NCBI GenBank assembly: GCA_937120495.1
Contig: CAKZJW010000060.1
Location: forward strand, 1-64,000
Origin: an uncultured Oligoflexia bacterium
GTDB taxonomy: Bacteria > Bdellovibrionota > Bacteriovoracia > Bacteriovoracales > Bacteriovoracaceae
Reading direction: 5' to 3'
DNA: 64,000 bases
Each line of letters begins with the position of its first letter. Positions within the stretch are counted from its first letter, which is position 1. Below the pieces are notes generated by a model. The model did no database searches. It was not told where the DNA came from and saw only the letters and a list, made by a program, of their open reading frames with translations. Positions 4,467 through 53,155 of the stretch are shown here, in pieces. The position numbers and the translations under genes are program-made.

Positions 4467-4543
4467 TGGCTGGAATGGTCGGACTCGAACCGACGACCAA
4501 TAGATTAACAGTCTACTGCGCTAACCAACTGCGCCACATTCCA
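4467..4543 (-). tRNA. tRNA-Asn (anticodon GTT)
   Basis: The cloverleaf is complete: acceptor stem TGGAATG/CATTCCA, D-arm with AGTTGGTTAGC, anticodon loop CTGTTAA with GTT, T-arm GGTTCGAGTCC, discriminator G and an encoded CCA. It is flanked by its own promoter and terminator, so it is a single-gene unit. Confidence 0.97.
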
Positions 4544-4650: not shown

Positions 4651-4677
4651 TAAAGTTTTAAGAATATTACCCGATAA
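4651..4677 (+). promoter_or_regulatory. Near-consensus sigma-28 (FliA) flagellar promoter
   Basis: TAAAGTTT, an 11-base spacer, then CCCGATAA. The FliA consensus is TAAAGTTT-N11-GCCGATAA, so 15 of 16 defined bases match at exact spacing. It ends 24 bases before the start codon of the unknown gene that follows. This would place that gene in the late flagellar class. Confidence 0.8.
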
Positions 4678-4701
4678 GAATACTCAGAGATAGGAGTTTA
4701 T

Positions 4702-5268
4702 ATGCTAGGACCTTTGGGTTCGACATTAATGAGTATCATGAGGGTGTTAACACCTTCTGAGATCGAGAGGTATGCTCACGAGGTGGTTTCTGCTGAGGAG
4801 GGTAAGGTGATGAGTATCGCCGCTGGAGCAGAGGGCTATGAAATGCTTTCTGATTCACATCTAGAGCATGGGTCAGGCGATCATAAGGCCAAGATTATAC
4901 CTATTAACGAGGCTGCTGAGAAAGAGCTTAAAGAGCTAGAAGAGCCTGATTTAGAAAAGCCTAAAAAACAGGCTAAAAAGAGCGACAATTCATTGGGATC
5001 CTTGGGAATTCTTTCAGCGGGAGAGCTGAATGAGCAAGAAGCCAAGAAGAAAAAACTGAATGATAGTAAAAAGGAATCGACATCAATTTTTATACTAAAC
5101 CAAAGAGAGCGGCTAAAAAAATCTCAGAATAAACTAGCTGGGCAAGCAGCAATACTGGAATACAAAAAAAGTGCATCACAAGAAATGATCCAATCTGATA
5201 ATACTCATGATGATGAGGAAAAGGTATCCGGCTCAAGCGGTATTCTAATTAATAAAAAGCACTATTAA
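4702..5268 (+). CDS. Unknown protein under a sigma-28-type promoter
   Basis: A 188-residue hydrophilic protein. The N-terminal 15 residues are mildly hydrophobic (MLGPLGSTLMSIM), followed by a short helical region (LTPSEIERYAHEVVSAEEGK, about 16-35) and a long charged, low-complexity Lys/Glu/Ser region likely to be disordered or coiled. No enzyme motif is visible. SD GATAGGAG lies six bases before ATG. The upstream region carries a nearly perfect FliA promoter, so it is probably expressed late with filament and chemotaxis genes. It could be a motility accessory factor, a chaperone or a secreted regulator. Its stop overlaps the convergent astA stop by four bases. I do not recognise a family. 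Confidence 0.72.
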   Translation: MLGPLGSTLMSIMRVLTPSEIERYAHEVVSAEEGKVMSIAAGAEGYEMLSDSHLEHGSGDHKAKIIPINEAAEKELKELEEPDLEKPKKQAKKSDNSLGSLGILSAGELNEQEAKKKKLNDSKKESTSIFILNQRERLKKSQNKLAGQAAILEYKKSASQEMIQSDNTHDDEEKVSGSSGILINKKHY

Positions 5269-6281
5269 AATGGAATAACAGAAACTTCTTTAATATTGTT
5301 CAATTCAATATTTTTAGAGAATTCTTCATCAAGGTAAAAAGTAGAACCATCGATTTTACCCTTGCACATGATTGCTAGAAACTCATTGCTACCTTGAGGT
5401 GAGAGAAGAAAACTCTCGGTCTCATTTCCACTTAAATCCTTAATCTTAAAACTGAAAGTTTTAAGATCCTTTATCGGCTTAACATTGTCTGTCTTACATC
5501 TATAATGGGGGCCACCATCAAAAGGATCAACCTCATTTATATAGTGAAAGCCAATGGATTCAAGCATCTTTTTTACTGGTAATGTATCTTCTCCAACTTT
5601 ACCAATTGCATTTCTAGCTTCAATTGGAAGTAGTGTCATATAGATGTTATCGGAAGGAAATAAACTCAAAATAAATTCTTTATTTGAACGACTTAAAACA
5701 TCAGCCTCACCATACTCCATGTTCATAAATCTTCGGCCAATAGCTTCCCACAATGGAGCTTTACCGTTTTTATCAAATGGGGGCATTAGTTCAGAATGAA
5801 TTTGAGATTTAAATTGATCTTTATTTAAAGCAATGTATAAAAAACGAACAAAAGAAATTTGTTTTCCAAGTTTAAATTTATTTCCTCTATACTCTGGGTT
5901 TAAAACAAGACCACCAATTTCTGTCGGCCCATTCATATCGAGTCCAAGTTTAAGTGTCCCGTGTAAAAAACCAGTATTAATTGTGCTCGAGTATTTGTTT
6001 TCATTGCCAACTGAAAGGTAAAAGTGAGGCTCTGACTCAGTTCCATGTTGAGCATGAATCATAGAGACACCGATGACTTTCTTTTTTGTTCTGTCTTCTA
6101 AAACAAATATATAATAATTTTCAGCTAAATCTTTTGATGGATTAGAAAAACTTTTTATCGATTTATTAATTTTATTTTTAATAATATTTTTATCATGGGG
6201 AAGATTTATAAAAAGCACCTTTCCACTGAGTTCATAAAGATCATTCAAGTCTTCAGATCTAACACTTCTCATTATATACAT
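5265..6281 (-). CDS. astA: Arginine N-succinyltransferase (AstA)
   Basis: Transfers succinyl from succinyl-CoA to arginine, the first step of the arginine succinyltransferase (AST) catabolic pathway. At 338 residues it is the normal length. Family blocks are visible: an N-terminal IRSVRSEDLNDL-like start, a region GKAPLWEAIGRRFMNMEY (about 178-195) and FDGGPHYRCKTDNV (about 252-265), the hallmark C-terminal FDGGP motif. The GNAT-like fold is expected. The minus-strand partner just upstream looks like a class III aminotransferase that has lost its core, the family to which the later enzyme AstC belongs. No astB, astD or astE is in view. Low-GC codon use matches neighbours. Confidence 0.85.
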   Translation of the reverse strand: MYIMRSVRSEDLNDLYELSGKVLFINLPHDKNIIKNKINKSIKSFSNPSKDLAENYYIFVLEDRTKKKVIGVSMIHAQHGTESEPHFYLSVGNENKYSSTINTGFLHGTLKLGLDMNGPTEIGGLVLNPEYRGNKFKLGKQISFVRFLYIALNKDQFKSQIHSELMPPFDKNGKAPLWEAIGRRFMNMEYGEADVLSRSNKEFILSLFPSDNIYMTLLPIEARNAIGKVGEDTLPVKKMLESIGFHYINEVDPFDGGPHYRCKTDNVKPIKDLKTFSFKIKDLSGNETESFLLSPQGSNEFLAIMCKGKIDGSTFYLDEEFSKNIELNNIKEVSVIPF

Positions 6282-6282
6282 C

Positions 6283-7026
6283 TTATTTCCTTAAGCAGTT
6301 TGTTACTCTTTCCAAGCAATCTTTAAATTGAGCACCAGTAAAACTAAGTGGAAAGTTTAAATAAACTTTATCATCAATAAAATTATCTTTTCCTATTAGT
6401 ATACAGCATTCTTTAGATAGTTCTAAGTCAAATTGGCTCTTTGAGAAAATAAGGTTTAGGCCAATAATATCGATTTGGTTTTCTTGTGAAAAATCTTGAA
6501 GTGCTTTCTTTCGTTTTTGAGCATATCCACCTTTGAGCACTACTGTTGTAATGTAGTCAAAAATATCTTTATCAACAGACTGGTAATTAACAAGTTTACC
6601 TTCTTTAAAATGTAAGTAGTAGTGGTCAATAATTTGAATGAATATATTTTTAGCTTTCAAGAAGTCCATAGATAAAAATTCGTTATCTAGAAATTCTAAG
6701 CCCTCTAATATTAGATTCATGTCTGAGTAATCTTGATGTTTTGAGTAATTTTCTAAATTAATTACTTCTCCCCATACTTCAGTCTCGGGTAGTCTCCCAT
6801 GAGAAAGGATTATTGGATGAGAATGTCCCCAAAAAGGTTTATCTTTTGAAATTCTTAAATCAAAAAAGACGTTACCTTGTTCATCTGTGGCAAAAGCACC
6901 GTGGGAATTGTGAATTTTAGAAAAAGGAGTACCAGAGTAATTTGCATTTTTAATTGCACTCAGCTCTTTCAATCTTTCAGAAAAGTCTTTTGAATTATTT
7001 TTTGAATTTTGCGTCGTGCTACTCAT
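6283..7026 (-). CDS. Degenerate class III aminotransferase-like protein
   Basis: A 247-residue protein, well short of the ~400 of ornithine-type aminotransferases. Near residues 40-70 the pattern HGAFATDEQGNVFFDLR followed by WGHSHPII matches the family start (G-x-x-x-x-D-x-x-G-x-x-x-x-D, then G-H-x-H-P). The rest is diverged: I can see no PLP-binding lysine block and no GGG/SHA cofactor-binding segments. It lies two bases upstream of astA on the same strand, so both are probably co-expressed. AstC, a class III enzyme, acts in the same pathway. It may be a relic or a regulatory pseudo-enzyme. Catalysis is unlikely. Confidence 0.55.
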   Translation of the reverse strand: MSSTTQNSKNNSKDFSERLKELSAIKNANYSGTPFSKIHNSHGAFATDEQGNVFFDLRISKDKPFWGHSHPIILSHGRLPETEVWGEVINLENYSKHQDYSDMNLILEGLEFLDNEFLSMDFLKAKNIFIQIIDHYYLHFKEGKLVNYQSVDKDIFDYITTVVLKGGYAQKRKKALQDFSQENQIDIIGLNLIFSKSQFDLELSKECCILIGKDNFIDDKVYLNFPLSFTGAQFKDCLERVTNCLRK

Positions 7027-10967: not shown

Positions 10968-11528
10968 TTATGCTTCGTTTCTTCTTTCTGTTGATCTTTT
11001 TGGAGCATCAGCAGTTGCAGAAGTTTGTGCCTCTTCTGTTTTAGCGGCTTGAACGTTTGTTCTGTTCGAGTCATCAGAAGAAAATGCAACGATATAGCTT
11101 TTAAGTTCTTTGTACATCTCATGCTTAACATTTAACTTAGAATCTTGAAGAACAATTTGTTTTGCAATTTTCTTTTCATTGTTAATAACAACAGGTGCTT
11201 TTAAATTTGCACTCATTGTAGTGATGTCACTTGGGATTGTTAAAATACTATAGATTTTGGCTTGAGTTAATGATTCAAGCTCAACACTGTTCATGTCAGC
11301 AGGTAATAATTTTGCAACATAATCAGGTTTAAATATTTTTGGTTCGATAATTGGAAATGCAATCTTCTCATCATCAATAGACTGAAGCCAAAGGATAAGT
11401 GTGCTATCTCCTGGATCAACAACAAAGAATTTACTTAGATTTTCAAAGCCTAAAAGTCCTTCCTGGAAATTGATAATATCGTCTTTGTTTACTTGAAGTT
11501 CTCCAAATCTTGTCGTGTTGACCTTCAC
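10968..11528 (-). CDS. fliW: Flagellar assembly factor FliW
   Basis: FliW binds flagellin and, when free, binds CsrA to release flagellin mRNA for translation. Residues 1-135 form the FliW fold: TTRFGELQVNKDDIINFQEGLLGFE at the start (conserved G-L-x-G-F-E) and later LTIPSDITTMSANLKAPVVINNEKKIAKQIVLQ, the family C-terminal block ending near 128. A ~45-residue extra tail rich in Ala/Thr/Asn/Glu follows and looks disordered. The start is GTG, five bases after CGGAGG. It lies downstream of csrA on the same strand, with a gap of 85 bases, an arrangement that supports the three-part flagellin-FliW-CsrA control. Confidence 0.93.
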   Translation of the reverse strand: MKVNTTRFGELQVNKDDIINFQEGLLGFENLSKFFVVDPGDSTLILWLQSIDDEKIAFPIIEPKIFKPDYVAKLLPADMNSVELESLTQAKIYSILTIPSDITTMSANLKAPVVINNEKKIAKQIVLQDSKLNVKHEMYKELKSYIVAFSSDDSNRTNVQAAKTEEAQTSATADAPKRSTERRNEA

Positions 11529-15194: not shown

Positions 15195-15518
15195 CTAGTA
15201 TTCAGATGATAATATTTTATCAGCAATTGCATCAAAGTCTGGTTCATATGTTCCAGCTTGAATTCTAGCTTTTAAGCTAGCAATCTTAGCTGAGTTATCA
15301 ATTGGCGGAGCTGCATCTACCGCTTTTTTTATTCTTGAGAAGTCTCTAATTTTATCTGGTATAGATACTTTTGCATCTTTTGCAGTTTTATTCTCTAACT
15401 CTTGAGTTCTATCATAAGTGTTTCTTTGCAATGCTTTTGCCGACTTTGCTCGCTGCAGTTCTGCTTGTGCAGTTTTTGATCGAGGAAAGAAAGGTGCTCT
15501 AGTGTCAATGCTACTCAT
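15195..15518 (-). CDS. flgM: Anti-sigma-28 factor FlgM
   Basis: Holds sigma-28 (FliA) inactive until the hook is complete, then is exported. It has 107 residues. The C-terminal third carries the recognised FlgM block: DNSAKIASLKARIQAGTYEPDFDAIADKIL (75-104), where the K-x-x-x-L-K-x-x-I-x-x-G-x-Y pattern contacts sigma-28. The N-terminal two-thirds is Ala/Lys/Arg/Thr-rich and looks disordered, as in other members. It overlaps no neighbour but directly abuts flgJ. A sigma-28 promoter is found elsewhere in this window, upstream of the gene at 4702. Confidence 0.82.
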   Translation of the reverse strand: MSSIDTRAPFFPRSKTAQAELQRAKSAKALQRNTYDRTQELENKTAKDAKVSIPDKIRDFSRIKKAVDAAPPIDNSAKIASLKARIQAGTYEPDFDAIADKILSSEY

Positions 15519-35562: not shown

Positions 35563-36753
35563 ATGGCTAAGGAAAAATTTGATAGATCGAAACCACACGT
35601 AAACATTGGTACGATCGGTCACGTAGATCACGGTAAAACAACATTAACAGCAGCAATCACAATGACTCTAGCGGAAGCTATGGGTGGTGAGGCTAAGTCT
35701 TATGCAGATATCGATTCAGCTCCGGAAGAAAAAGCGAGAGGGATAACGATCAATACTTCACACGTTGAGTATGAAACAGCTAATAGACATTACGCACACG
35801 TAGATTGTCCAGGTCACGCGGATTATGTAAAGAACATGATTACGGGTGCAGCTCAAATGGATGGTGCAATTCTTGTATGTTCAGCAGCAGATGGTCCAAT
35901 GCCTCAAACTAGAGAGCATATCCTTCTTGCACGTCAGGTAAACGTACCAGCGGTAGTAGTTTTCTTAAACAAGGTAGATCAAGTAGATGACGAAGAGCTT
36001 TTAGAGCTTGTAGATATGGAGATCAGAGAGTTACTTTCTAGTTATGATTTCCCAGGTGATGATACACCAATCGTAGCAGGTTCAGCGCTTGCAGCGGTAG
36101 AGAACAGAGACGCGAACATTGGTCGTGAGAAGGTTCTTGAGTTAATGGCTAAGGTTGATGAATTTATTCCAACACCAGCTAGAGACGTAGATCTTGATTT
36201 CTTAATGCCAGTAGAGGACGTATTCTCAATTTCAGGTCGTGGTACAGTTTGTACAGGTAGAGTTGAAAGAGGTATCGTAAAAGTTGGAGAAGAGATTGAA
36301 ATCATCGGAATCAAAGAGGCTGTAAAGACAACTGTAACAGGTGTAGAGATGTTCAGAAAGCTTCTTGACGAAGGTCGTGCAGGAGATAACGTAGGTATCC
36401 TTTTAAGAGGTATTAAGAGAGAAGATATCGAGCGTGGTCAATGTATAATTAAGCCAGGAACAGTTAAGCCACATAGCAAGTTTAGATGTGAAGTTTATAT
36501 TTTAACAAAAGAAGAGGGTGGAAGACACACTCCAATTTTCAAAGGATATAGACCACAATTTTATTTCAGAACAACGGATGTAACGGGAGCGATCACGTTA
36601 AATGAAGGAACTGAAATGATCATGCCAGGTGATAACACAGGTTTTGACGTAGAATTGATTACGAATGTAGCAATGGAGAAGGGACTAAGATTTGCGATCC
36701 GTGAGGGTGGTAGAACGATTGGTGCTGGAACAGTTACTGAGATTTTAGACTAA
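35563..36753 (+). CDS. tuf: Elongation factor Tu, copy 1
   Basis: GTPase that delivers aminoacyl-tRNA to the ribosome, 396 residues. G1 [13 protein letters not shown] (18-30), G2 region [15 protein letters not shown]3 DCPGHADY, G4 NKVD and G5 GSAL are all canonical, and the C-terminal beta-barrel ends [17 protein letters not shown]. The protein is the same as copy 2 at 51965. The DNA matches it over nearly the entire length and differs only in silent positions of the last five codons. It follows the tRNA block, as tufB does in enterobacteria, with SD AAGGAG. Confidence 0.98.
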
Positions 36754-51964: not shown

Positions 51965-53155
51965 ATGGCTAAGGAAAAATTTGATAGATCGAAACCACAC
52001 GTAAACATTGGTACGATCGGTCACGTAGATCACGGTAAAACAACATTAACAGCAGCAATCACAATGACTCTAGCGGAAGCTATGGGTGGTGAGGCTAAGT
52101 CTTATGCAGATATCGATTCAGCTCCGGAAGAAAAAGCGAGAGGGATAACGATCAATACTTCACACGTTGAGTATGAAACAGCTAATAGACATTACGCACA
52201 CGTAGATTGTCCAGGTCACGCGGATTATGTAAAGAACATGATTACGGGTGCAGCTCAAATGGATGGTGCAATTCTTGTATGTTCAGCAGCAGATGGTCCA
52301 ATGCCTCAAACTAGAGAGCATATCCTTCTTGCACGTCAGGTAAACGTACCAGCGGTAGTAGTTTTCTTAAACAAGGTAGATCAAGTAGATGACGAAGAGC
52401 TTTTAGAGCTTGTAGATATGGAGATCAGAGAGTTACTTTCTAGTTATGATTTCCCAGGTGATGATACACCAATCGTAGCAGGTTCAGCGCTTGCAGCGGT
52501 AGAGAACAGAGACGCGAACATTGGTCGTGAGAAGGTTCTTGAGTTAATGGCTAAGGTTGATGAATTTATTCCAACACCAGCTAGAGACGTAGATCTTGAT
52601 TTCTTAATGCCAGTAGAGGACGTATTCTCAATTTCAGGTCGTGGTACAGTTTGTACAGGTAGAGTTGAAAGAGGTATCGTAAAAGTTGGAGAAGAGATTG
52701 AAATCATCGGAATCAAAGAGGCTGTAAAGACAACTGTAACAGGTGTAGAGATGTTCAGAAAGCTTCTTGACGAAGGTCGTGCAGGAGATAACGTAGGTAT
52801 CCTTTTAAGAGGTATTAAGAGAGAAGATATCGAGCGTGGTCAATGTATAATTAAGCCAGGAACAGTTAAGCCACATAGCAAGTTTAGATGTGAAGTTTAT
52901 ATTTTAACAAAAGAAGAGGGTGGAAGACACACTCCAATTTTCAAAGGATATAGACCACAATTTTATTTCAGAACAACGGATGTAACGGGAGCGATCACGT
53001 TAAATGAAGGAACTGAAATGATCATGCCAGGTGATAACACAGGTTTTGACGTAGAATTGATTACGAATGTAGCAATGGAGAAGGGACTAAGATTTGCGAT
53101 CCGTGAGGGTGGTAGAACGATTGGTGCTGGAACAGTTACTGAAATCCTAGATTAA
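51965..53155 (+). CDS. tuf: Elongation factor Tu, copy 2
   Basis: Second EF-Tu gene, at the usual fusA-tuf place. The protein equals copy 1 at 35563. By eye the DNA is the same from the ATG to the fifth-last codon; then GAG-ATT-TTA-GAC in copy 1 reads GAA-ATC-CTA-GAT here, all silent. The flanks share no similarity. SD AAGGAG is at 51951. This fits recurrent gene conversion with a tract ending near the 3' end. Confidence 0.98.
53073..53110. promoter_or_regulatory. Placeholder boundary of tuf copy 2 3' end
   Basis: Nothing regulatory is seen inside the tuf coding region here; the operator-like palindrome lies further downstream at 53173-53210. Confidence 0.05.

Follow-up and report, generated by a model that had tools for sequence, protein, structure and literature searches.

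Of 140 attack-phase promoters mapped in Bdellovibrio bacteriovorus, 92 (about two thirds) contain the motif TTAAG-N16-CCGATA, and the targets of the Bdellovibrio sigma factor FliA include flagella, surface proteins, proteases, chemotaxis and genes of unknown function (PMC3627812). FliA also drives the TAD pilus operon and appears to be essential (PMC5430801). It has been proposed as the master regulator of the attack phase. The host of the locus described here belongs to a family whose members resemble Bdellovibrio and are mostly predatory (Bdellovibrionota, Bacteriovoracia), and its genome encodes a full-length cognate FliA (TIGR02479, 269 bits) as well as flagellins and FlhA. Within the window, the whole stretch of 64 kb that was analysed, a putative FliA (sigma-28) promoter precedes a gene for an orphan protein of 188 amino acids, and the conservation of the motif across the family makes FliA control of this gene very likely. 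The locus comprises the following features:

4467-4543, minus strand: divergent upstream tRNA-Asn(GTT), left border of the promoter region (ARAGORN)
4651-4677, plus strand: FliA (sigma-28) promoter with -35 element TAAAGTTT (4651-4658), 11-nt spacer TAAGAATATTA and -10 element CCCGATAA (4670-4677), based on direct reading, genome-wide rarity and ortholog conservation
4692-4696, plus strand: ribosome-binding site AGGAG, 5 nt 5' of the start codon (direct reading)
4702-5268, plus strand: orphan gene for the 188-aa protein (ORF with orthologs at conserved synteny)
5265-6281, minus strand: convergent gene for an AstA-family arginine N-succinyltransferase, conserved right-hand neighbour and synteny marker (PF04958, E=2e-97; 31 of 38 ortholog loci)

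Read directly, positions 4651-4677 agree with the FliA consensus TAAAGTTT-N11-GCCGATAA at 15 of 16 bases with an 11-nt spacer, and the 3' end of the promoter lies 24 nt from the ATG at 4702, as claimed by an earlier note that had described a near-perfect sigma-28 promoter with exact spacing in front of this ORF. Based on local base composition, 0.22 sites of at least 15/16 with N11 are expected per 3.3-Mb genome and 0.004 per window. The host genome contains two, namely 4651-4677 and a site 5' of a type IV pilin gene, and an N12 spacer with A or C at position 2 yields four further sites of at least 15/16; all six are followed by an ORF on the same strand. Other sigma-28 sites in the rest of the 64-kb window reach at most 13/16. 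The AT-richness of the genome might suggest that the resemblance to a FliA promoter arose by chance and that the gene has no connection to FliA, as might the matches with three mismatches, which genome-wide hardly exceed a reversed-pattern control and mean little. However, the low number of sites of such quality expected per genome, together with the comparison of orthologs and control genes described below, renders this reading highly improbable.

The promoter comparison covered 126 loci, in which 90 unique ortholog upstream regions were compared by one procedure with those of 1135 further ORFs from these loci. At a threshold of at least 14/16, T[AC]AAGTTT-N11/12-NCCGATAA was detected upstream of 58 of the 90 orthologs versus 1 of the 1135 control genes. 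With T[AC]AAGTTT-N11/12-GCCGATAA, the counts were 72/90 versus 13/1135 at a minimum of 13/16, and 79/90 versus 71/1135 at a minimum of 12/16. Most ortholog promoters contain TCAAG, a 12-nt spacer is commoner than one of 11 nt, and in most orthologs the motif is located approximately 15-40 nt from the start codon. The motif is kept even in highly diverged orthologs, such as those of Bacteriovorax stolpii and its relatives (profile E-values of 1e-7 to 1e-16). No recognisable motif was identified 5' of the ortholog in genome G002 or of the diverged ortholog in genome G004. A chance match was rejected on the basis of the ortholog control, unless an unrelated constraint common to all orthologs acts at this position. 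The earlier note had stated that its reading would be refuted if relatives with the gene lacked the motif; the motif is present in about 80-88% of the orthologs, with few exceptions, and its retention across the family upholds the proposed control. A related core precedes the first flagellin genes of the family, where T[ACT]AAG-N14-16-NCGAWA occurs in 13 of 29 cases (including one from another family of the phylum) at an upstream distance of 70-94 nt, versus 0.13 in shuffles, and the flagellin promoter of the host itself reads TTAAG-N15-TCGATAA. The presence of this related core at family flagellins indicates that it represents a FliA-type motif in this clade.

In a search with a profile built from 36 orthologs, 87 of the 291 genomes sampled in the phylum contained the gene. 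All 87 belong to a single family (Bacteriovoracaceae/Halobacteriovoraceae), and none of the sampled genomes from other families gave a match. Among family genomes that are at least 90% complete, the gene is present in 71 of 77; the profile matches 72, of which a match in genome G028 containing three stops was discounted as spurious. A scan of the genome contigs with the single 188-aa protein yielded zero matches. Named relatives were obtained via an alignment of the neighbouring AstA and all carry the family names Bacteriovoracaceae or Halobacteriovoraceae; among them are Bacteriovorax sp. BSW11_IV and DB6_IX and a Halobacteriovorax marinus isolate. The search for motif and protein in relatives that the earlier note had proposed thus recovered both across most of this family. 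The conserved gene order consists of genes for an IscA-like protein, a YgfZ/TPR protein, the 188-aa protein, AstA, a TPR-SH3 protein, a cyclic-nucleotide-binding-like protein, a permease and a BamD-like protein, with FliW further on. At the syntenic place, G004 contains a strongly diverged ORF with the C-terminal end SFIINKKTQ, which was missed by the profile search. In some lineages the domain is repeated, as a duplicated N-terminal segment or as two profile matches per frame (locus L070, G025 with a 377-aa frame and G019 with a 476-aa frame). Next to astA, the host encodes a 247-aa ORF (6283-7026, minus strand) whose start resembles a shortened, decayed class-III aminotransferase, with a Pfam match at noise level only; relatives have AstC/AstD-like genes at this position beside AstA. 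Elsewhere in the window, two EF-Tu genes (35563-36753 and 51965-53155) encode identical translations of 396 aa. The orthologs of 4702-5268 form a protein family not described before, within a regulon of known type.

The five other best FliA-type sites of the host genome are located upstream of genes for a type IV pilin and an RHS protein, two large ORFs with exported-looking N-termini and a 73-aa ORF, and weaker sites precede genes for a Flp pilin, a PilZ protein, a matrixin, a cupredoxin and a sigma-54 activator. The best site of the genome (16/16, TAAAGTTT-N12-GCCGATAA; L098:1501-1528, corresponding to C93:9345-9372) lies 22 nt 5' of the first start codon for a large RHS-repeat protein. The site associated with the sigma-54 activator (14/16; L107:1501-3027, C60:67865 onward, outside the window) lies 17 nt 5' of its gene and hints at a cascade from FliA to sigma-54. 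Together with the Bdellovibrio regulon, these targets suggest that, in this group of bacteria, a FliA promoter marks the motile attack-phase cell and not necessarily the flagellum.

A more specific connection to the flagellum is probable, as judged from gene distribution. Flagellin is present in 73 of the 77 family genomes at least 90% complete, and the gene occurs in 71 of these 73 flagellin-bearing genomes versus none of the four that lack flagellin (G028, G032, G138 and G180; Fisher p=1e-5 by genome, 0.009 by genus). These four genomes and G251 also lack FlhA and have no copy of the gene at the AstA locus, but all five keep a full-length FliA (>270 bits). The absence of the gene together with the flagellum where FliA is kept suggests that it is separable from FliA and tied to the flagellum. 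The flagellum-less genomes fall into two lineages (g32 and G028), and the AstA tree is also compatible with a single loss, so that the co-absence rests on one or two loss events. At the syntenic site of two flagellated genomes, G001 (McBI.35, same genus, 87% complete) and G041, no ortholog was found; the otherwise syntenic AstA locus of G001 (L179/L193) contains a LysR-type regulator and a short ORF in place of the gene. G048 and G009 were left unjudged, as the locus was incomplete in their assemblies. The retention of FliA in genomes without flagellin or FlhA suggests an essential non-flagellar role of FliA in the family, as proposed for Bdellovibrio.

In agreement with the earlier note, the window encodes FlgM (15195-15518, PF04316), and the presence of FlgN, FliW and CsrA was likewise confirmed; the flagellar cluster, placed by that note 6 kb away, starts 5.7 kb downstream, with the end of fliW at 10968. 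From the promoter, the note had concluded that the gene is a late flagellar or chemotaxis-regulated gene. Its flagellar part is probable by virtue of the co-absence with the flagellum in genomes keeping FliA (one or two losses), not by virtue of the promoter alone, as FliA sites also precede non-flagellar genes; for chemotaxis, there is no specific support.

Alternatively, FliA could control the gene as part of a general attack-phase programme, with a function in prey encounter, in the cell cycle or at the cell pole or surface and not in the flagellum; its co-absence with flagella would then reflect a change in lifestyle. The breadth of the Bdellovibrio FliA regulon, which spans surface proteins, proteases and TAD pili (PMC3627812, PMC5430801), the non-flagellar genes downstream of the other host sites (type IV pilin, RHS and exported proteins at 15/16 or better; Flp pilin, matrixin and sigma-54 activator at weaker sites) and the lack of the gene in the flagellated G001 are consistent with such a function. 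However, the flagellum-less members keep FliA, and thus at least part of the FliA programme, yet the gene is gone. Furthermore, the 188-aa protein has no apparent signal peptide, membrane segment or surface feature, unlike most other products of FliA-site genes in the host. We therefore regard a general attack-phase function as possible but doubtful. The reading that we favour, with some reservation, is that of a class-III-type (FliA/sigma-28) gene of the swimming attack-phase cell, which is Bacteriovoracaceae-specific and functionally tied to the flagellum; it is based on the conserved FliA-type promoter, the synteny, the restriction to the family and the absence of the gene in genomes that lack flagellin and FlhA despite having FliA. 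The swimming-cell programme probably includes this gene, which has so far escaped notice.

Consistent with its description as unrecognised in the earlier note, the protein has no relative in Pfam, NCBIfam or PDB sequence searches, its best Pfam match being Ctf8 (E=0.13). AlphaFold models reached a mean pLDDT of 70 and a pTM of 0.33 with 36 sequences, and 75 and 0.37 with 71 sequences, and Foldseek searches with the models gave no match (all E-values above 1). In the models, N-terminal and C-terminal helical regions flank a linker of low confidence, within a protein that is probably mostly disordered. Models and alignments delineate four elements:

4702-4776, plus strand: N-terminal helical segment MLGPLGSTLMSIMRVLTPSEIERYA, family consensus LLRxLTPEEIxxLT (alignments; model helices 4-12 and 18-40)
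4885-4902, plus strand: short linear motif AKIIPI in the linker, family consensus AKILPF (alignment; disordered region)
5017-5190, plus strand: C-terminal helical hairpin, residues 106-163, the best-predicted part (model helices 106-123 and 127-163, pLDDT about 85-95)
5239-5265, plus strand: C-terminal tail GILINKKHY, consensus GVLVNKKQY, near-invariant and the most conserved element (alignments; G180, L182 and K185 invariant)

The linker between the helical parts is variable and charged, and the C-terminal helix contains the conserved pattern TSxFILxEK...KLKxxExxxLY. Invariant columns of the alignments are confined to one tyrosine of this helix (Tyr154) and the glycine, leucine and lysine of the tail. 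The N-terminal helix was also considered as an amphipathic membrane anchor, which we do not claim given modest and uneven hydrophobic moments (0.05-0.50). The disorder of the protein, together with the conservation of short motifs and of the extreme C-terminus, is in keeping with an adaptor that binds a partner by docking. Judged from alignments and predicted structure, a role as a cytoplasmic adaptor in the motile cell is most likely.

FlgM is largely disordered. Disorder combined with a C-terminal helical hairpin could thus also point to a flagellar type III export chaperone, an export substrate or an anti-sigma-like regulator (FlgM-, FlgN-, FliS- or FliT-like) that has diverged beyond recognition, several such genes belonging to the late FliA class and flgM and flgN being located only about 10 kb away. 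Yet hhalign detected no similarity to the FlgM and FlgN that the window already encodes (hhalign probability of 0.1% for both), and a kinship with them was rejected. Moreover, Pfam searches over the 36 orthologs returned scattered single-member matches and not one chaperone match, and the conserved C-terminal tail is foreign to FlgM-, FlgN-, FliS- and FliT-type families. Membership in one of these groups is therefore unlikely.

For the favoured class-III-type gene, the following sequence of events can be envisaged. Upon completion of the hook, FlgM would no longer hold FliA, and RNA polymerase with FliA would transcribe the gene together with flagellin. The cytoplasmic product, composed of the predicted N-terminal helix, the AKILPF linker, the C-terminal hairpin and the GVLVNKKQY tail, could act as a flexible adaptor whose short motifs, most likely the C-terminal tail, dock on a partner located at the pole or the flagellar base, and could thereby tune the assembly or operation of the polar flagellum. 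More tentatively, the protein might represent a previously unrecognised component of the polar flagellum or the attack pole that is specific to the family. As a disordered adaptor docking via its near-invariant GVLVNKKQY peptide on a partner from the flagellar base or the chemotaxis machinery, it would connect flagellar completion, via FliA, with predatory swimming. With these orthologs, encoded by 71 of 77 near-complete genomes of the Bacteriovoracaceae, an unannotated protein family joins the FliA programme known from Bdellovibrio-like bacteria, and its conserved tail offers a concrete bait for partner searches. Furthermore, the flagellum-less members that keep FliA could serve as natural material for telling the flagellar part of the FliA programme from the part devoted to predation.

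Among known systems, the class-III FliA promoters of E. coli and Salmonella share with this locus the -35 and -10 elements (15/16 bases), the 11-nt spacer and the position just 5' of the gene, in a genome encoding both FliA and FlgM. In contrast, the gene controlled here has no counterpart in the classical regulon, and the family orthologs mostly contain TCAAG and often a 12-nt spacer. FlgM and FlgN resemble the 188-aa protein in being flagellum-linked, small and partly disordered or helical, but they lack a detectable sequence relation to it and are separately encoded in the window. The N-terminal consensus LTPEEIxxL is reminiscent of the CheY-binding peptide of FliM (LSQxEIDALL; LSQDEVDALL in the FliM of the host), which we regard as a lead only, as the shared pattern is just helix-cap-like and the last leucine is a threonine in most orthologs. 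The architecture of an N-terminal helix, a disordered linker and C-terminal helices may also resemble that of PopZ. The attack-phase regulon of Bdellovibrio, a related member of the phylum, includes many uncharacterised genes and uses the same type of motif (TAAAG-N15-CCGATAA at this locus and TCAAG-N15/16-CCGATAA in orthologs), but differs in that the gene described here was not found in genomes sampled from the remaining families of the phylum.
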